Source: Methanosarcina vacuolata Z-761 (GTDB lineage Archaea; Halobacteriota; Methanosarcinia; Methanosarcinales; Methanosarcinaceae). From it: 64,000 nt of DNA. Below are positions 12,137 to 52,622 of the stretch, piece by piece (position 1 is the first letter of the stretch; the number at the start of each line of letters is the position of its first letter). A program made the translations under genes and the position numbers. The notes beneath the pieces were generated by a model. The model worked only from the letters and a program-made list of their open reading frames with translations. It did not search any database and was not told the DNA's origin. Location of the stretch: assembly GCF_000969905.1 (NCBI RefSeq), contig NZ_CP009520.1:558001-622000 (forward strand). The letters run 5' to 3'.

Positions 12137-12384
12137 TTTTTACTCACTGTAGGCCTTGAATTGTTCTGTTAATACAATTGAGAAAATAAAATTGAGATTT
12201 TTATTGGAAATTCCGGGTTTTTCAGGATTCCTCAGATACTGGGTAATGTCTATATCAGGATTCTCTAAATACTGGCTAATAACTTTAGATATTGATTAGT
12301 AGATACAACATCTTTATTAAAATCATCCTTCTTATATATATTTAACAATTCGATATTGAAAGCCATTTTAAAGGAGGAATTGGT

Positions 12385-12603
12385 CTGGGCCAGGAAAAAC
12401 TTATAGAAGTTTGTCCTGTCTGCGGAAACGCAGATTTATATTATGAAGTTGGCGGGTATGCAGGTTCGGTTTACCACTGCAAGGAATGTGGGTATATAGG
12501 TGCTTTTGTTATTGAAGCTAATGAGGAAATGATCGAGAAAATACGGGAAAATTACAGACGTGAAAGAATGAGTCAAAGTAATAAGGTAAGCGATGGTGAA
12601 TGA
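12385..12603 (+). CDS. Small zinc-ribbon protein with apparent CTG start
   Basis: 72 codons. The translation has CPVCGNADLYYEVGGYAGS and later YHCKECGYIGAF, giving two CxxC knuckles of a zinc ribbon, then a charged helix. No ATG, GTG or TTG exists in frame before the first cysteine knuckle; the in-frame CTG at 12385 lies 7 nt after a perfect GGAGG (12373-12377) and gives MGQEKLIEVCPVCG. The TTG at 12381 is in another frame and meets a stop after 8 codons. The function is unknown; small zinc ribbons of this kind occur widely in methanogens. The unusual start could mean low-level expression. Confidence 0.75.
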   Translation: MGQEKLIEVCPVCGNADLYYEVGGYAGSVYHCKECGYIGAFVIEANEEMIEKIRENYRRERMSQSNKVSDGE

Positions 12604-16772: not shown

Positions 16773-17125
16773 CTACCCCTGAATTCACTACAGAATTTTT
16801 AGAAAAATATATATATGCGAATAACCAACAAAGTATTGGAGACATCTGAGAGATGAGTAATCAGACGGGATTAAAATGGCACGAAAAACACCCCATCTGC
16901 TAAAACACTCATGAACCCCAATCAGCGTAATCATGAACTCTTCATGGTTTCATTGTCTCGCTTGAGGTGATCATGGCTTCCCACCCATGGTGATCGTGAG
17001 TTTCTTCCTGTACATTCATCGCTTCATCCAGAAGCATGAGCTTACAGCCTGGATGTTCACGAATAATCGTGATAATTGCAGGATAGAAGTCTCTATAGTT
17101 CTAAAACTAAAACGGAGGATGCAAC

Positions 17126-17767
17126 ATTAGCAAAGAAGAATTGCTTCAGGAACTTGCAGATGCTATAATTTCCTGCAAGAAGGATACAGTACTCGCTGTA
17201 GTTGAAAAAGCGAAAGGAGAACTGGAACCTTCTGAAATAATTGATAAAGGGCTTGCAGCAGGCATGAACGAGGTTGGTGTCCGTTTCGAGAGAGGAAAAC
17301 TGTTTCTGCCACACGTAATGATGGCTGCCGATGCGATGACTGCAGGAGTTGCAGCGCTTAAGGATCTTATGCCTGAAGGAGCTTCCGGCTCAAAGCTCGG
17401 TGTTATTGTGAACGGTACCGTTGAAGGTGATGTTCATGATATCGGAAAGGCAATCGTGTCCACAATGCTTCAATCTGCCGGCTTTGAAGTCCATGACATC
17501 GGTCGTGATGTTCCAATCAGGAACTTTATTGAGAAGGCAAAGGAAGTCAATGCCAATATGATTGGAATTTCCGCCCTTATGACCACAACTCTCCAGGGAC
17601 AGAAAGGTGTAATTGAGCTCCTCAAAGAAGAAGGGCTCAGAGACAAAGTAAAAGTCATGGTAGGCGGTGCGCCTGCAACCCAGGCCTGGGCTGACAAAAT
17701 CGGTGCAGATTGCTATGCTGAAAACGCAACTGAGGCTGTTGCAAAAGCAAAAGAACTGCTGGCTTAA
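17126..17767 (+). CDS. mtbC: Dimethylamine corrinoid protein MtbC, apparent ATT start
   Basis: 213 residues. An N-terminal helical cap domain (about 1-90) precedes a B12-binding domain with GDVHDIGK; His104 should be the lower axial cobalt ligand. Then come GRDVPI, the SALMTTT stretch and [16 protein letters not shown]. The protein carries the methyl group from dimethylamine after transfer by MtbB. The start: the expected N-terminus [10 protein letters not shown] needs initiation at the ATT at 17126, which is 7 nt after a perfect GGAGG (17114-17118). The next possible start is a TTG at 17141 that would be 22 nt from the ribosome site. First gene of the operon mtbC-mttB-mttC-mttP-small genes-mtbB. 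Assignment to MtbC rather than another corrinoid paralogue follows from order and sequence. Confidence 0.92.
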
Positions 17768-17793: not shown

Positions 17794-19281
17794 ATGGCAA
17801 AAAATAATGCAGTTGCTGGATTTAATGCACTTAATGGCGTAGAATTAAACCTTTTTACTAATGATGAACTTAAGGCAATTCACTATGCAACCATGGAAGT
17901 TCTGATGGAACCAGGAATTCAGGTTTCTGATCCAGAGGCAAGGCAGATCTTCAAGGAAAATGGCTGCGAAGTTAACGAAAAGACCAACGTCGTAAAGATC
18001 CCTGAATATCTTGTAAGAAAAGCTCTTCAGCTAGCCCCATCCAGATTTGTACTCTGGGGCCGTGACAAAAAGTTTAATACCGTTCAGGAATGCGGTGGCA
18101 AAGTTCACTGGACCTGCTTCGGTACCGGTGTTAAGGTCTGCAGATACCAGGACGGCAAGTATGTAACAGTCGATTCCGTCGAAAAAGACATTGCAGACAT
18201 TGCAAAACTCTGTGACTGGGCAGAAAACATTGACTATTTCTCTCTGCCAGTCTCTGCAAGGGACATTGCAGGTCAGGGCGCTCAGGATGTTCACGAAACA
18301 CTTACCCCTCTTGCAAACACCGCAAAACACTACCACCACATTGACCCTGTTGGCGAAAATGTCGAGTACTACCGGGACATTGTAAAGGCCTACTACGGCG
18401 GCGACGAAGAAGAAGCAAGAAAGAAACCTATTTTCTCCATGCTACTCTGCCCTACCAGTCCGCTTGAGCTCAGTGTAAATGCCTGTCAGGTCATCATCAA
18501 GGGTGCTCGCTTTGGAATTCCTGTAAATGTCCTGAGTATGGCAATGTCAGGTGGTTCTTCTCCTGTATATCTTGCAGGCACTCTTGTAACCCACAATGCC
18601 GAAGTTCTTTCAGGAATCGTACTTGCTCAGTTGACAGTGCCTGGATCTAAGGTCTGGTATGGAAGTTCCACAACCACCTTCGACCTCAAGAAAGGTACAG
18701 CACCTGTAGGATCTCCTGAACTCGGTCTTATCAGTGCTGCAGTCGCAAAGCTTGCCCAGTTCTACGGCCTTCCCTCCTATGTGGCAGGTTCCTAGTCTGA
18801 TTCCAAGGTTCCGGACAACCAGGCAGGCCACGAAAAAACCATGACCACCCTTCTGCCTGCCCTTGCTGGTGCCAACACCATCTACGGAGCCGGAATGCTT
18901 GAGCTCGGAATGACATTCTCAATGGAACAGCTTGTTATTGACAATGATATCTTCAGTATGGTTAAGAAAGCCATGCAGGGAATTCCTGTCTCGGAAGAAA
19001 CCCTTGCAGTCGAATCTATCCAGAAAGTAGGCATCGGAAACAATTTCCTGGCCCTTAAACAGACCAGACAGCTTGTGGATTACCCGTCCAACCCAATGCT
19101 CATTGACAGACACATGTTTGGAGATTGGGCTGCAGCAGGCTCAAAAGACCTTGCAACAGTTGCACACGAAAAGGTAGAGGACGTTCTTAAAAACCACCAG
19201 GTAACCCCAATCGATGCAGACATTCTCAAGGACATGCAGGCAATCGTGGACAAGGCTGACAAAGCCTTCAGAGGCATGTAA
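17794..19281 (+). CDS. mttB: Trimethylamine:corrinoid methyltransferase with in-frame pyrrolysine codon
   Basis: 495 residues when the amber codon TAG at 18793-18795 (codon 334) is read as pyrrolysine. The frame continues without a shift after the TAG ([14 protein letters not shown]) to a TAA at 19279, and both halves match MttB. Codon 334 is the known pyrrolysine position of MttB. The residue is thought to bind and orient trimethylamine for methyl transfer to MttC. The gene starts with ATG after AGGTTAT and follows mtbC after 26 bases; mttC follows after 30 bases. Readers that treat TAG as stop would split it in two (333 and about 146 residues). Pyrrolysine genes pylTSBCD are not in the window. 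Confidence 0.97.
18793..18795 (+). other. In-frame UAG decoded as pyrrolysine in MttB
   Basis: TAG codon 334 of mttB, with no frame change on either side and coding conserved after it. This is an established pyrrolysine site in this enzyme family. Confidence 0.95.
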
Positions 19282-39876: not shown

Positions 39877-42689
39877 ATGAAAATGGACAAAAAATTCTGT
39901 TCAGTAGCTTTAGCTTCAACGGCCATTGTTTTATTTTTAATTTTAATGTTATCTACTACATCGACCGCTACTGCACAAAATACTTCAAGCACGGCTAAAT
40001 ACGCTTACATCACGAATAGCGGCAGCACCACTGTCTCTGTAATTGACATCACAACAAACAAAGTTACATCCACAATAAATGTAGGACAATATCCCTACGG
40101 GGTTGCAGTTAACCCCGATGGAACAAAAGTGTATGTGTCGAAAGAAAAAAGTGGAACTATTTCCGTAATTGACACTGCAAAAAATAAGGTTACAGCCACA
40201 GTGAGGGTAGGAAAAAACCCCTGGGGAGTTGCAGTTAATCCGACGGGAACAAAGGTATATGTGGCAAACGAAGGTAGTAAGACAGTCTCTGTAATTGATA
40301 CTGCTAGCAACAAGGTTACAGCTACAGTGTATGTAGGAAATTATCCTTGTGGAATTGCAGTTAACCCGGCAGGAACAAAGGTATATGTGGCGAATTCCCT
40401 TGATAACACTGTTTCTGTAATTGACACATCAACAAACAAGGCTATAGCCACAATAAAAGTAGGAAACCTCCCTACCGGAGTTGCAGTTAATCCGGCGGGA
40501 ACAAGGGTATATGTGACGAATGAGTACGATGTTTCTGTAATTGACACATCAAAAAATAAGGTTGCAGCAAGAGTAAAAGTGGGAAAGTACCCATGGGGAG
40601 TTGCGGTAAACCCGGCTGGAACAAAGGTATATGTGACAAACTATGGAGATGGTACTTTTTCTGTGATTAATACGGCCACAAACAAGGTTACAGCCACAGT
40701 GACGGTGGGAAGTTATCCATTAGGGATTGCTTTCAGTCCGGACGGGACTAAGGCATATGTGGCAAAAGAAACAAGCGGAGCTGTCTCTGTAATTAACACA
40801 GCCACAAACAAGGTTACAGCTACAGTGAGGGTGGGAAAAGACCCTGCTGCATTCGGGCAGTTTATAGGTTCTGTTTCTGTGCAAAATCCAGTAGTTCCTG
40901 ATGCAGATTTCATTGGTTCTCCAGTCTCAGGAAGTTCCCCATTAAAAGTGCAGTTTACCGACAAGAGTACAGGTTCCCCGACTGATTGGAAATGGAACTT
41001 CGGAGATGGATCGGATCTGGTAACTGAATATAATCCAACACATACATACTCAAAACCCGGAACGTATACTGTGAAAGAGACCGTGAGTAATGCAGCAGGT
41101 AAGGATACGGAAATAAAAACGGATTATATAACCGTGACAGAAGCTTCACAAACTCCTGATGCAGATTTCGTTGGTTCTCCAGTCTCAGGAAGTTCCCCAT
41201 TAAAAGTGCAGTTTACTGACAAGAGTACAGGGTCCCCAACTTATTGGAAATGGAACTTTGGAGATGGATCGGATCTGGTAACTGAATATAATCCAACACA
41301 TACATACTCAAAACCCGGAACGTATACTGTGAAAGAGACCGTGAGTAATGCAGCAGGTAAGGATACGGAAATAAAAACAGATTATATAACCGTGACAGAA
41401 ACTTCGCAAACTCCTGATGCAGATTTCGTTGGTTCTCCAGTCTCAGGAAGTTCCCCATAAAAGTGCAGTTTACCGACAAGAGTACAGGTTCCCCAACTTA
41501 TTGGAAATGGAACTTTGGAGATGGATCGGATCTGGTAACTGAATATAATCCAACACATACATACTCAAAACCCGGAACGTATACTGTGAAAGAGACCGTG
41601 AGTAATGCGGCAGGTAAGGATACGGAAATAAAAACAGATTATATAACCGTGACAGAAACTTCGCAAACTCCTGATGCAGATTTCGTTGGCTCTCCAGTCT
41701 CAGGAAGTTCCCCATTAAAAGTGCAGTTTACCGACAAGAGTACAGGTTCCCCAACTTATTGGAAATGGAACTTTGGAGATGGATCGGATCTGGTAACTGA
41801 ATATAATCCAACACATACATACTCAAAACCCGGAACGTATACTGTGAAAGAGACCGTGAGTAATGCAGCAGGTAAGGATACGGAAATAAAAACAGATTAT
41901 ATAACCGTGACAGAAACTTCGCAAACTCCTGATGCAGATTTCGTTGGTTCTCCAGTCTCAGGAAGTTCACCATTAAACGTGCAGTTTACTGACAAGAGTA
42001 CAGGGTCACCGACTTATTGGAAATGGAACTTCGGAGATGGATCGGATCTGGTGACTGAATATAATCCAACACATACATACTCAAAACCCGGAACGTATAC
42101 TGTGAAAGAGACCGTGAGTAATGCAGCAGGTAAGGATACGGAAATAAAAACGGATTATATAACCGTGACAGAAGCTTCACAAACTCCTGATGCAGATTTC
42201 GTTGGTTCTCCAGTCTCAGGAAGTTCACCATTAAACGTGCAGTTTACTGACAAGAGTACAGGGTCACCGACTTATTGGAAATGGAACTTCGGAGATGGAT
42301 CGGATCTGGTGACTGAATATAATCCAACACATACATACTCAAAACCCGGAACGTATACTGTGAAGGAGACCGTGAGTAATGCAGCAGGCAGGGATACGGA
42401 AATAAAAACGGATTATATAACCGTGACAGAAGCTTCACAAGCTCCTGTTGCAGATTTCTGGGGCTGGCCACTCTCAGGAAATGCTCCACTAAAGGTAACA
42501 TTTACTGAGACCAGTACCGGCTCCCCAACCTCATGGAAATGGGATTTCGGAGATGGTAAATCTTCAACAGAAAAGAGTCCAACACATACATATTCATCTG
42601 CAGGAACTTACACGGTTAAACTCACAGCAACAAATGAAGCAGGAAGTAGTACAAAATCAAAATGGAAATATATAAAAGTGTCAGAGTGA
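39877..42689 (+). pseudogene. YVTN beta-propeller / PKD surface protein with one-base frameshift
   Basis: Start at the ATG at 39877 (GGAG 8 bases before), giving MKMDKKFCSVALAS and a signal peptide ending near TATAQN. Residues about 35-330 are seven or eight YVTN/NHL-type beta-propeller repeats (VSVIDTATNKVTATVxVG). They are followed by six almost identical 86-residue PKD domains (258 bp each) and a seventh diverged one. In the third PKD copy CCCCATAAAAG stands where the other copies have CCCCATTAAAAG, so one T is missing at 41457-41459 and a TAA stop follows after 528 codons. Coding then continues in the new frame to 42689. Either the gene is truncated to propeller plus two PKD domains, or it is an inactivated copy, or the missing T is a sequencing error. 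PKD domains are known in methanosarcinal S-layer-associated proteins. Confidence 0.88.
40900..42445. repeat. 258-bp tandem repeat, six copies, encoding PKD domains
   Basis: The copies differ from each other by only a few bases, much less than expected for old protein repeats, so they have been homogenised by recombination or duplicated recently. Confidence 0.95.
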
Positions 42690-44382: not shown

Positions 44383-46659
44383 ATGAAAGTGAACAAAAAA
44401 TTGTGTTCAGTAGCTTTAGTTTCAACAGCCATTGTTTTATTTTTAATTTTGATATTCTCTACTACATCGGCAGCTACTGCACAAAATACTTCAAGTACGG
44501 CTAAATACGCCTACATTACTAATAGCGGCAGCACCACTGTCTCTGTAATTGACATCACAACAAACAAAGTTACAGCCACAATAAATGTAGGAAAATCTCC
44601 CTACGGGGTTGCAGTCAACCCCGCTGGAACAAAAGTGTATGTGTCGAAAGAAAAAAGTGGAACTATTTCCGTAATTGACACTGCAAAAAATGAGGTTACA
44701 GCCACAGTGAAGGTAGGAAAAAACCCCTGGGGAGTTGCAGTTAATCCGACGGGAACAAAGGTATATGTGGCAAACGAAGGTAGTAAGACAGTCTCTGTAA
44801 TTGATACTGCTAGCAACAAGGTTACAGCTACAGTGTATGTAGGAAATTATCCTTGTGGAATTGCAGTTAACCCGGCAGGAACAAAGGTATATGTGGCGAA
44901 TTCCCTTGATAACACTGTTTCTGTAATTGACACATCAACAAACAAGGCTATAGCCACAATAAAAGTAGGAAATCTCCCTACCGGAGTTGCAGTTAATCCG
45001 GCGGGAACAAGGGTATATGTGACGAATGAGTACGATGTTTCTGTAATTGACACATCAAAAAATAAGGTTACAGCAAGAGTAAAAGTAGGAAAGTACCCAT
45101 GGGGAGTTGCGGTAAACCCGGCTGGAACAAAGGTATATGTGACAAACTATGGAGATGGTACTTTTTCTGTGATTAATACGGCCACAAACAAGGTTACAGC
45201 CACAGTGCATGTAGGAAGTTCCCCCTTAGGGATTGCTTTCAGTCCGGACGGGACTAAGGCATATGTGGCAAAAGAAACAAGTGGTGTCGTCTCCGTAATT
45301 AACACAGCCACAAACAGGGTTACAGCTACAGTGAGGGTCAAAAAAGATCCCGTTGCATTCGGGCAGTTTATAGGTTCTGTCGAAGCACAAAACCCAAAGA
45401 CTCCAGTTGCTGTATTTTATGCATCTCCAAAATTAGGAAAAGCGCCTTTAAGCGTTAAATTTACTGACAAAAGTACCGGCTCCCCAACTAAATGGAAATG
45501 GAATTTTGGAGACGGAACGTCGTCAACAACCAGAAGTCCAACTCATGAGTATTCTAAAGCTGGAAAATATACTGTTAAACTTACAGTAACAAATGCTGCA
45601 GGCAGTAACACCGCAACAAAATCAAAATATATCATAGTGATAGTAAAACCGACTGCTGTATTTTATGCATCTCCAAAAGTAGGAAACGCACCTTTAAGCG
45701 TTAAATTTACTGACAAAAGTACCGGCTCCCCAACTAAATGGAAATGGGATTTTGGAGACGGAACGTCGTCAACAACCAGAAGTCCAACTCATGAGTATTC
45801 TAAAGCTGGAAAATATACTGTTAAACTTACAGTAACAAATATCGCAGGCAGTAACACCGCAACAAAATCAAAATATATCATAGTAAAAGCTACTTCGAAA
45901 GCTCCTGTTGCAGATTTCGTGGGGTTGCCACTCTCAGGAAAAGCTCCACTAAAGGTAACATTTACTGACAAAAGTACAGGTTCCCCAACTAAATGGAAAT
46001 GGGATTTTGGAGATGGTAAATCTTCAACAGAACAGAGTCCAACACACACATATTCATCTGCAGGAACTTATACTGTTAAACTTACAGCAACAAATGCAGC
46101 AGGAAGTAATACAAAAACAAAATCAAAATATATCACAGTAACAGCTACTTCACAGGCTCCTGTTGCAGATTTCTGGGGCTGGCCACTCTCAGGAAATGCT
46201 CCACTAAAGGTAACATTTACTGAGACCAGTACCGGCTCCCCAACTTCCTGGAAATGGGATTTTGGAGATGGTACCTCTTCAACAGAACAGAGTCCAACAC
46301 ACACATATTCATCTGCAGGAACTTATACTGTTAAACTTACAGCAACAAATGCAGCAGGAAGTAGTACAAAAACAAAATGGAATTATGTAAAAGTGTCTGG
46401 TGCTTCACAAGTTCCTGTTGCAGATTTCTGGGGCTGGCCACTCTCAGGAGAAGCTCCACTAAAGGTAACATTTACTGAGACCAGTACGGGCTCCCCAACT
46501 TCCTGGAAATGGGATTTTGGTGATGGTACATCTTCAACAGAACAGAGTCCAACACACACATATTCATCTGCAGGAACTTATACTGTTAAACTTACAGCAA
46601 CAAATGCAGCAGGAAGTAGTACAAAATCAAAATGGAATTATGTAAAAGTGGCAAGGTGA
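44383..46659 (+). CDS. Secreted YVTN beta-propeller and PKD surface protein
   Basis: 758 residues, intact paralogue of the gene at 39877. A signal peptide (MKVNKKLCSVALVSTAIVLF and onward) is followed by YVTN beta-propeller repeats (about 35-330) that are nearly identical to those of the first copy. Five PKD domains follow (starting near residues 345, 428, 508, 590 and 675), with the typical FGDG and YTVKLT(A/V)TN motifs. No C-terminal membrane anchor is seen. These proteins are probably part of the cell envelope or mediate adhesion, as inferred from the domain types. The PKD set differs from gene 1, which has the homogenised 86-residue type. The start ATG has a GGAG 9 bases before. Confidence 0.9.
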   Translation: MKVNKKLCSVALVSTAIVLFLILIFSTTSAATAQNTSSTAKYAYITNSGSTTVSVIDITTNKVTATINVGKSPYGVAVNPAGTKVYVSKEKSGTISVIDTAKNEVTATVKVGKNPWGVAVNPTGTKVYVANEGSKTVSVIDTASNKVTATVYVGNYPCGIAVNPAGTKVYVANSLDNTVSVIDTSTNKAIATIKVGNLPTGVAVNPAGTRVYVTNEYDVSVIDTSKNKVTARVKVGKYPWGVAVNPAGTKVYVTNYGDGTFSVINTATNKVTATVHVGSSPLGIAFSPDGTKAYVAKETSGVVSVINTATNRVTATVRVKKDPVAFGQFIGSVEAQNPKTPVAVFYASPKLGKAPLSVKFTDKSTGSPTKWKWNFGDGTSSTTRSPTHEYSKAGKYTVKLTVTNAAGSNTATKSKYIIVIVKPTAVFYASPKVGNAPLSVKFTDKSTGSPTKWKWDFGDGTSSTTRSPTHEYSKAGKYTVKLTVTNIAGSNTATKSKYIIVKATSKAPVADFVGLPLSGKAPLKVTFTDKSTGSPTKWKWDFGDGKSSTEQSPTHTYSSAGTYTVKLTATNAAGSNTKTKSKYITVTATSQAPVADFWGWPLSGNAPLKVTFTETSTGSPTSWKWDFGDGTSSTEQSPTHTYSSAGTYTVKLTATNAAGSSTKTKWNYVKVSGASQVPVADFWGWPLSGEAPLKVTFTETSTGSPTSWKWDFGDGTSSTEQSPTHTYSSAGTYTVKLTATNAAGSSTKSKWNYVKVAR

Positions 46660-47100: not shown

Positions 47101-47764
47101 ATATTCTTTGAATAACACGCGTAAACAATGAAAATGCTTGCAGATGGCAGTATTCTCATGCTAAATCATATGATCCATAGGGGATGGCGAGCCCAAATCT
47201 CTCAGAATTAGCTTCCATTAGTCACTGGCTATTGATTGCTTTTTTATTTTTATTTTATCGGGTATTATACCGAAAACAGTTACTAAACATTTTATCTCTT
47301 TGTATTAATTTTTATATCCAGTTTCTTCTCTTTTATTTTTTCCTATTTCTAATTCCAGATGATACCTTGAAATTAATGCTTGTTTTTGAGATTAACTTAC
47401 TATCCATCTTGTAAATTGATCTACAATTTCCAGGAAAAAAGTGCATGAATTAAACTAAAATTAAATATTTAATTGTACTATAGAGGCTGAAATAGGGTCT
47501 TAAATGTAAATTAAGGCTAATAAATTTTTTATCATAAGTAATTCATATAAAAAATAATATATAATGAGAATATTTATATTTATTTATATTCATTTTCTTC
47601 AAGCTAAAGTGATTTTATCTAAAAAATTTTGCCCCCAGTAGATCAGTTCTTTGAATAAGAGTATACGCTACAATCATGTATTCAAATGAACACTTCTACT
47701 AAATATCTATAAAGTTATCCTAAAAATCTCGTTCAAAACTGTTTTAACGGACGGAGGAATTGGA

Positions 47765-49699
47765 ATAAAAACATTAAACACTTTGTTAGTAACTTTTTTA
47801 ATTTTATTATTTTTATCTGGTCTTGGAGCTGCGGCTGAGATTATAGTGCAGCCAGGAAGTTCTATTCAAAAAGCTGTGAATAATTCATCTTCGGGCGATA
47901 TAATTACTGTAAAGCCCGGAACCTATATTGAAAATATCATAGTAACTAAAAACGATCTTACCATTCGGTCAGAATCAGGAAAACCTGATAACACAGTAAT
48001 TAAAGCCAAAAGTTCAGGGGCTAATGTGTTTCTCCTGCAGGGAGACAACATAAAGATATCTGGACTTAAGGCTATAGGAGCAACTCGATCCGGCTATTCA
48101 GGAATCTGTCTGTCTTCGTGCAGTAACTGCGTAATCGAGAATAACAAACTTTTGAGCAATTGTTATGGAATCTATCTCCTGCGTTCCAAAGGGGACAAGC
48201 TGTCAAAGAACACGGCTACAAATAATCTGCAATATGGAATTGTACTTGGGACTGCTACAGACAATACCATTTCAGGAAATACGGCCCTTAATAATGGCCG
48301 CGGTATTCATATTGGCAACTCTGATGGCAATACCCTCTCAGGCAATACTGTTCAAGACAATAGTGTTTATGGGCTTTATGTCTGTCCCAGAAGCGACACT
48401 AATCAGATTTACAACAATTACTTCAATGACACTAATATGACTATTAGAAATGGGATCGGAAATACCTATAATACCAAAAAAACCGCAGGCACTAATATTG
48501 TGGGCGGCCATTACATAGGAGGCAACTTCTGGGGAAAACCTGATGGTACAGGATTTTCCAATACTGCAGTAGATAGCGATGGAGACGGAATTTCCGATTC
48601 TGCATATAAGAATATAACAGGCAGCATCTATTCTGACAACCTTCCTCTAGTAACTTCTAAATCCGATACGTTAAAGCCAATTGCTGCGTTTTCGGCATCC
48701 CCTACATCAGGAAACGCGCCTTTGAGTGTAATATTTACTGACAGCAGTACAGGTTCGCCCACTTCATGGAAGTGGAGTTTCGGGGACGGAGCCACTTCAA
48801 CCGAACAGAACCCGGCACACACTTATTCTACTCAAGGGAACTATACGGTGGCACTTACAGTAAGCAACTCTGCAGGCAATAATACTGTAACAAAAACTGG
48901 GTATATAGCGGTAGGAACAACAGCGTCAAAGCCGGTTGTAAGTTTCTGGGGGTCTCCGAGAACAGGGAATGCGCCACTGAGCGTGACTTTTAAGGATAGT
49001 ACTTCAGGCTCCCCTACTGCCTGGAACTGGAGTTTCGGAGATGGGACCTTTTCAACAGTACAGAACCCGAAGCATACGTATTCGACAGCAGGAAATTACG
49101 TAGTAAAGCTGACAGCGACCAATGCTGCAGGAAATTCCACATTATCAAAATGGAATTATATAATAGTAACAGGAACGTCTTCGCAGGCCCCGATTGCTGC
49201 GTTTTCGGGATCTCCAACTTCTGGAAGTACGCCCCTGAGTGTAACATTTACTGACAGCAGTACAGGTTCGCCAACAGCATGGAACTGGAATTTTGGAGAC
49301 GGAACCAGTTCAACAGTCCAGAACCCTGTACATACATATTCGACAGCAGGAAGTTACGGTGTAACGCTTACAGTAAGCAACTCTGCAGGTAGTAATACGA
49401 CAACAAAATCCAGTTACATAAAAGTGACAGCAAACAGTACAACAAATGCAACAATACCTGTTGTAAGCTTCTGGGGATCACGAACTTCAGGAACAGCCCC
49501 TCTTACTATCACATTTACTGATGCAAGTACAAACACCCCTACTTCCTGGAACTGGAATTTTGGAGATGGAAACTATTCAACATTACAAAAACCAAGGCAC
49601 ACTTATTCAAAAGCAGGAAACTATTCATTAACACTTAAGGCAAGTAACGCAGCCGGCACTGGTACGAAGACCAGAGTCAATTATATAAAAGTAACATAA
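47765..49699 (+). CDS. Secreted beta-helix (NosD-like) and PKD protein with apparent ATA start
   Basis: 644 residues. The N-terminus MKTLNTLLVTFLILLFLSG (signal peptide) requires initiation at ATA 47765, 7 nt after a perfect GGAGG (47753-47757); the only other start nearby is a TTG six codons inside the signal peptide. Residues about 30-270 are a right-handed parallel beta-helix of the NosD/pectate lyase type (IENNKLLSNCYGIYLLRSKGDKLSKNTATNN and similar turns). Four PKD domains follow (from about residues 300, 385, 470 and 560). A role as surface-exposed or polysaccharide-associated protein is likely from the domains. It is the third PKD protein in a row here, but it does not share the duplicated leader of the other two. 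Confidence 0.88.
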   Translation: MKTLNTLLVTFLILLFLSGLGAAAEIIVQPGSSIQKAVNNSSSGDIITVKPGTYIENIIVTKNDLTIRSESGKPDNTVIKAKSSGANVFLLQGDNIKISGLKAIGATRSGYSGICLSSCSNCVIENNKLLSNCYGIYLLRSKGDKLSKNTATNNLQYGIVLGTATDNTISGNTALNNGRGIHIGNSDGNTLSGNTVQDNSVYGLYVCPRSDTNQIYNNYFNDTNMTIRNGIGNTYNTKKTAGTNIVGGHYIGGNFWGKPDGTGFSNTAVDSDGDGISDSAYKNITGSIYSDNLPLVTSKSDTLKPIAAFSASPTSGNAPLSVIFTDSSTGSPTSWKWSFGDGATSTEQNPAHTYSTQGNYTVALTVSNSAGNNTVTKTGYIAVGTTASKPVVSFWGSPRTGNAPLSVTFKDSTSGSPTAWNWSFGDGTFSTVQNPKHTYSTAGNYVVKLTATNAAGNSTLSKWNYIIVTGTSSQAPIAAFSGSPTSGSTPLSVTFTDSSTGSPTAWNWNFGDGTSSTVQNPVHTYSTAGSYGVTLTVSNSAGSNTTTKSSYIKVTANSTTNATIPVVSFWGSRTSGTAPLTITFTDASTNTPTSWNWNFGDGNYSTLQKPRHTYSKAGNYSLTLKASNAAGTGTKTRVNYIKVT

Positions 49700-52436: not shown

Positions 52437-52622
52437 TAATAAATTAACTTTCATAAATTAACTTTCATAAATTAACTTTCATAAATTAACTTTCATAAAT
52501 TAACTTTCATAAATTAACTTTCATAAATTAACTTTCATAAATTAACTTTCATAAATTAACTTTCATAAATTAACTTTCATAAATTAACTTTCATAAATTA
52601 ACTTTCATAAATTAACTTTCAA
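52437..52622. repeat. 14-bp tandem repeat, about 13 copies
   Basis: ATAAATTAACTTTC repeated without interruption and almost without mismatches; the longest simple array of the window. No spacers, so not a CRISPR. Confidence 0.95.

Follow-up and report, generated by a model that had tools for sequence, protein, structure and literature searches.

Putative near-cognate start codons in the window

The window analysed here, a stretch of 64,000 nucleotides from Methanosarcina vacuolata Z-761, carries a gene for a secreted beta-helix protein whose frame opens behind a perfect Shine-Dalgarno (SD) sequence with a codon that is neither ATG, GTG nor TTG. The features of this locus are as follows:

47708..47713, forward strand: TATAAA, possible TATA box, recognised by eye
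47747..47749, forward strand: ACG; in many homologues this position 5' of GGAGG is occupied by an in-frame ATG or GTG; not accepted as start
47753..47757, forward strand: Shine-Dalgarno GGAGG, full complement of CCTCC at the 16S rRNA 3' end
47758..47764, forward strand: 7-base spacer AATTGGA
47765..47767, forward strand: ATA, proposed start codon, proposed to be read as Met; ATA or ATT in SD-bearing homologues
47765..49699, forward strand: NosD beta-helix/four-PKD secreted protein, 644 codons, frame open to 49699
47783..47785, forward strand: TTG, earliest canonical codon of this frame, unconserved; rejected as start

The 16S rRNA of the same genome ends in GGATCACCTCCT (anti-SD located at C2:46009), and a spacing of 7 bases is also the commonest SD distance among the canonical starts of this genome, so that ATA 47765 is a codon one base from AUG at a normal SD distance. 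Translated from this codon the protein begins with IKTLNTLLVTFLILLFLSGLGAAAE, in which a signal peptide was called by eye, and it matches the Pfam families NosD, Beta_helix and PKD, the last four times. None of the 25 open codons upstream in this frame is ATG, GTG or TTG. By inference only, the TATAAA element would place the transcript start at about 47737 and would give a leadered mRNA including the GGAGG.

We searched the window for GGAGG followed after 7 bases by ATA, ATT, ATC or CTG, with an open reading frame of at least 60 codons and no canonical codon upstream, and obtained exactly three sites: CTG 12385, ATT 17126 and ATA 47765. The features of the first two are:

12373..12377, forward strand: GGAGG of the CTG case
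12385..12603, forward strand: 72-codon zinc-ribbon-like protein from CTG 12385
17114..17118, forward strand: GGAGG of the ATT case
17126..17767, forward strand: methylamine corrinoid protein (B12-binding, MtbC/MttC type), 213 codons, from ATT 17126

The preliminary description of this DNA had named three genes with GGAGG, 7 bases and an ATA, ATT or CTG start; all three sites, behind GGAGG 12373-12377, 17114-17118 and 47753-47757, were confirmed, and the three genes compare with about 0.04 expected by chance in 64 kb. Its dismissal of TTG 47783 as a poor alternative is likewise borne out by the position of this codon, 25 bases 3' of GGAGG, and by its replacement in relatives with TTA, CTG or ATA.

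The 72-residue protein, which gave only weak Pfam matches under the cut-off, lacks any ATG, GTG or TTG over 48 codons. At its start column, 29 distinct homologues carry CTG (25), ATG (3) or TTG (1); the SD is disrupted (GGAGA or AGAGG) in two of the three homologues with ATG. The corrinoid gene adjoins mttB on the upstream side of the latter. Of its distinct orthologues, 21 have a readable start column, and ATT stands there in every one; the in-frame TTG 17141 is replaced by TTA or CTG in several of them, and three paralogous corrinoid copies have ATG at the start column. The corrinoid GGAGG (window 17114-17130) is also followed at once by ATG CAA CAT TAG, a three-codon reading frame; its stop overlaps the region of the ATT start. 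GGAGGATG is retained in every corrinoid orthologue that aligns, and the stop of the three-codon frame is lost at spacing 8. The neighbouring mttB (window 17794-19281) has an in-frame amber TAG as its codon 334, where trimethylamine methyltransferase usually carries pyrrolysine.

Conservation of the ATA codon and alternative starts of the beta-helix gene

With a 601-base query, 28 of 31 Methanosarcina genomes yielded relatives, and extra loci were obtained by protein search. Homologues with a recognisable SD have ATA or ATT at the column of the proposed start, at spacing 7 or 8, with ATC and ATG occurring singly; among the distinct sequences with GGAGG there are 16 with ATA and 10 with ATT. ATG at this column was found in three copies, all with a weaker SD; L050 is a homologue with ATG at this place. 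Because ATA, ATT and ATC are synonymous, as are CTG and TTG, conservation of a column alone could merely reflect a conserved residue. As far as sequence comparison can tell, this reading is excluded solely by stop codons directly upstream and by the swaps to ATG. In two homologues, L045 (GGAGGAATTCTAA-ATT) and L053 (GGAGGGATTATAA-ATA), an in-frame TAA abuts the codon, so that an upstream start is excluded there.

Initiation upstream of GGAGG is the best surviving of the alternative start sites. According to this reading the protein would begin at an ATG or GTG (MDGGIKIKK...), perhaps on a leaderless mRNA, the GGAGG would be coding and ATA would be an ordinary isoleucine codon. Roughly half of the homologues do carry an in-frame ATG or GTG at this place, and one of them is L059 (C2:4003710-4004208), a paralogue from the genome of the window that is 93% identical at the gene start and has ATG there. 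Some in-frame canonical codon is present upstream in 13 of the 25 homologues having GGAGG. The window copy, however, has ACG at this place and no canonical codon in the 25 upstream codons, the homologues with spacing 8 put the ATG out of frame, and in L045 and L053 the TAA intervenes. The upstream triplet drifts between ATG, GTG, ACG, ATT and GTA while GGAGG-N7-ATH stays constant, no SD was found in front of the ATG/GTG triplet, and the other families would be left unexplained. We therefore regard an upstream start as improbable.

TTG 47783, the codon that a standard gene finder would annotate as the first canonical one in frame, is a still weaker candidate and a very unlikely start. Besides its distance from the SD and its lack of conservation, initiation there would remove the charged residues with which the signal peptide begins, and in the homologues the next canonical codon lies up to 27 or more codons downstream. 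Finally, that ATA, one base from ATG, is a mutation or sequencing error in a dying gene can practically be dismissed, given that ATA or ATT is the rule throughout the genus, in independently sequenced genomes with long intact frames.

Near-cognate codons are enriched exactly 7 bases behind GGAGG

The genome-wide count that the preliminary description had proposed as a check was run on 2.06 Mb of the genome of the window (45%; the remaining 55% was unread), in which a simple caller based on codon usage identified 1438 genes. In each of these genes the in-frame codons were read as far as the first canonical one and sorted by how far they lie from GGAGG. Without filtering, distance 7 held 37 canonical codons, 14 ATA, ATT, ATC or CTG codons and 13 others, as compared to 30 near-cognates among 340 non-canonical codons at the other distances, distance 1 being omitted (p = 1e-7). 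The excess persisted when the window was excluded: ATA, ATT, ATC and CTG then made up 11 of the 24 non-canonical codons with a spacing of 7 versus 28 of 312 elsewhere (p = 1e-5). Codons at spacing 7 directly before a canonical codon were then removed as ordinary starts with a spacing of 10; the rpl29-like gene at 1093262 (ATA ATG) was rejected in this way. After filtering, spacing 7 was left with 13 near-cognate, 6 other and 37 canonical codons, against 15 near-cognates out of 240 elsewhere (p = 2.6e-10), a result strongly above chance. About a quarter of the genes with a perfect GGAGG at spacing 7 thus have a near-cognate start. The chance level derives from 30 such codons over 23 spacings in 2.06 Mb, which corresponds to about 1.3 per spacing and to the 0.04 per 64 kb given above.

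The four-base SD words behaved differently in the same 2.06 Mb: GGAG gave no excess and GAGG a weak one. Distance 1 likewise showed an excess (15 of 50), which reflects the frequency of the word GGAGGAATT in this DNA; these codons were rejected as starts, being too near GGAGG. The raw motif GGAGGN7ATA, counted over the whole genome, was at chance level with 113 sites versus 109 for the reversed control, a count that is uninformative because it is not limited to gene starts. The near-cognate excess is found only at the 5' ends of genes. A different genus of the family (G097), sampled over 400 kb, had 9 canonical, 3 near-cognate and 1 other codon at distance 7 (p = 0.03), and no near-cognate codons were found at distance 7 in 400 kb of E. 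coli K-12. It is to be noted, as a post hoc observation, that the spacer begins as GGAGG-N-ATT in 7 of 13 near-cognate starts versus 4 of 37 canonical GGAGG-N7 starts (window 47753-47764 and 12373-12384 together with the genome sample).

Further families, including the initiation factor aIF1A

Eight further candidates, including aIF1A, were compared with their relatives, and most of these new near-cognate cases turned out to be conserved. A 149-residue protein (C2:807602) has ATA in 8, ATT in 1 and ATG in 1 of 10 distinct relatives at the same column. The solute-binding proteins at C2:283548 and 281368 have ATT or ATC in all relatives, and in four homologues (L358, L359, L362 and L363) a TAA lies directly 5' of the codon, the next canonical codon being at least 23 codons further on. 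For the DUF255 protein (C2:822122) the column is CTG in 10 of 12 and TTG in 2 of 12, and for the UppS-like protein (C2:820401) ATA in 8 and ATT in 2. Two candidates are conserved only in part. The kinase-like gene (C2:925471) has ATA behind GGAGG in one relative and ATG or TTG with a weak SD in two homologues, an exchange that looks like compensation between the start codon and the SD; the MFS gene (C2:2171969) has a mixed column, including in one homologue GTA, which is no usual near-cognate. The candidates at 2010227 and 3341918 may be ordinary, with an ATG 4 and 2 codons further on, respectively. Over ten families, the start columns of the homologues comprise 154 non-canonical and 21 canonical codons, and the canonical ones accompany weaker SDs (Fisher p = 0.03, indicative only since the sequences are related).

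The remaining candidate lies outside the window:

C2:881152-881502, reverse strand: translation initiation factor aIF1A with a CTG start (PF01176 eIF-1a, E 9e-19)

Among 36 copies, drawn from Methanosarcina and further genera of its family (including L299-L328 and L278), the aIF1A start column is CTG in 30, TTG in 5 and TTA, again no usual near-cognate, in one; ATG was never found. A canonical codon is next reached at codon 57, within the OB fold, and none of the 11 open codons upstream of the CTG is canonical. In L319 a stop codon lies four codons upstream, leaving just GGT GTT AAT CTG. The genome has four aIF1A genes, and at this column the other three have TTG in one case, CTG in another and a different upstream sequence in the third. 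In the other genera of the family the aIF1A SD is GAGG, and a perfect GGAGG is therefore not strictly required.

Proposed initiation at near-cognate codons

The site, its conservation, the enrichment at the exact distance and the lack of a usable canonical alternative are observations. We consider it very probable that ATA 47765 is the real start of the beta-helix gene, held in the P site by the SD and read by Met-tRNAi with one mismatch so that the protein begins with Met, and that this is a practice of the whole lineage. The incorporation of Met, the initiator tRNA as decoder and the SD as enabler are all inferred, with no proteomics, ribosome-profiling or reporter data.

The CAU anticodon of Met-tRNAi forms a third-base mismatch on AUA, AUU and AUC and a first-base mismatch on CUG; in E. 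coli measurements these single mismatches are the best tolerated after GUG and UUG. Start selection in archaea uses eukaryote-like factors. In the mechanism that we propose, full GGAGG-CCUCC pairing would hold the 30S subunit at the optimal 7-base distance, a distance that would set ATA exactly in the P site. The pairing would keep the codon there long enough for inspection by aIF1/aIF1A, an inference suggested by the strict need for an unbroken GGAGG at the best spacing, and the methionyl initiator tRNA (anticodon CAU) would be accepted with one mismatch, giving a protein that begins with Met. A minority of perfect-SD genes in Methanosarcina and related genera would use ATA, ATT, ATC or CTG in this manner.

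The preliminary description had read the three window genes as a relaxed start choice when the SD is perfect. The excess at GGAGG plus 7 and the conservation of ATA, ATT and CTG throughout the genus support this reading, although GAGG suffices for aIF1A in other genera of the family. "Relaxed" may be the wrong word, because the near-cognate codons are conserved without drifting back to ATG. This conservation suggests, on the basis of sequence alone, that the weak starts are maintained. The persistence of codons one base from ATG would mean either that the compensation is good enough or that weak starts are useful, and for the latter aIF1A would be the strongest case, by analogy: a stringency factor with a near-cognate start would limit its own synthesis. 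Autoregulation of aIF1A through its CTG is no more than possible.

A further reading is that near-cognate starts were selected as a regulon answering to the fidelity of initiation (the level of aIF1/aIF1A), with the CTG of aIF1A as a feedback loop. It is supported by the ATT of all 21 corrinoid orthologues and by the CTG or TTG, never ATG, of the 36 aIF1A copies, in both cases with ATG one base away, and it would parallel infC (AUU) in E. coli and eIF1 in eukaryotes. Against it, expression data are lacking, the genes share no evident theme, and drift compensated by a strong SD could also keep such codons for a while; we hold this reading as a tentative possibility only. The fuller proposal, that the Methanosarcinaceae near-cognate set is a translational regulon set by stringency, with aIF1A as its autoregulated controller and as an independently evolved counterpart of the infC/IF3 and eIF1 feedback, remains speculative and is at present doubtful.

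Relation to known systems

In E. coli, infC, encoding IF3, has an AUU start and is negatively autoregulated, and pcnB also starts with AUU; NCBI table 11 lists rare CTG, ATT, ATC and ATA starts. The likeness lies in the non-canonical AUN start and, for aIF1A as for infC, in a start-selection factor with a non-canonical codon. The E. coli cases, however, involve one or two genes, bacterial factors and no tie to GGAGG-N7, whereas in this archaeal family many unrelated genes are concerned; aIF1A, of the IF1/eIF1A family, is not homologous to IF3, and no autoregulation has been shown for it. Eukaryotic eIF1 (SUI1) has a start in poor context and is autoregulated. It resembles aIF1A as a fidelity factor with a weak start, deliberate in eIF1, but the eIF1 start is an AUG in poor Kozak context reached by scanning, that of aIF1A a CTG behind an SD.

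An archaeal review gives AUG, GUG and UUG as start codons (PMC7531240). Ribo-seq in M. mazei found CTG starts in 5% of unannotated small ORFs (PMC11456600), which is direct evidence of CTG translation in the genus with a codon shared with the present set; in the portion of that report available to us, there is no genus-wide conservation, no ATA, ATT or ATC and no link to a perfect SD. Belinky et al. (2017) found that non-AUG starts accompany stronger SDs, the same compensation between SD and start codon, but one that concerns GUG and UUG, with changes to CUG or AUU numbering just a few in over 60,000 starts (PMC5622118). We found no report of conserved ATA, ATT or CTG starts in Methanosarcina in the literature searched, subscription journals lying outside the search. 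Near-cognate starts as such are already known; their use on such a scale in an archaeon appears to be unreported.

Gene finders restricted to ATG, GTG and TTG shorten or miss such genes, as for the 72-residue protein and aIF1A, and the near-cognate genes are probably mis-annotated and perhaps regulated via their weak starts. The gene set constitutes a natural test of SD strength versus start-codon identity in archaea. Through its conserved CTG, aIF1A offers a direct test of whether an archaeal fidelity factor is autoregulated.

Repeats in the window

Two tandem repeats lie inside surface-protein genes, one with a unit of 258 bp in 6.4 copies that are 95% alike (window 40896-42556) and the other with a unit of 255 bp in 4.6 copies (window 45459-46633); in translation the unit resembles a PKD domain. 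A perfect 14-bp tandem array of ATAAATTAACTTTC, with 13.1 copies that are 100% identical, occupies the intergenic window positions 52439-52621.
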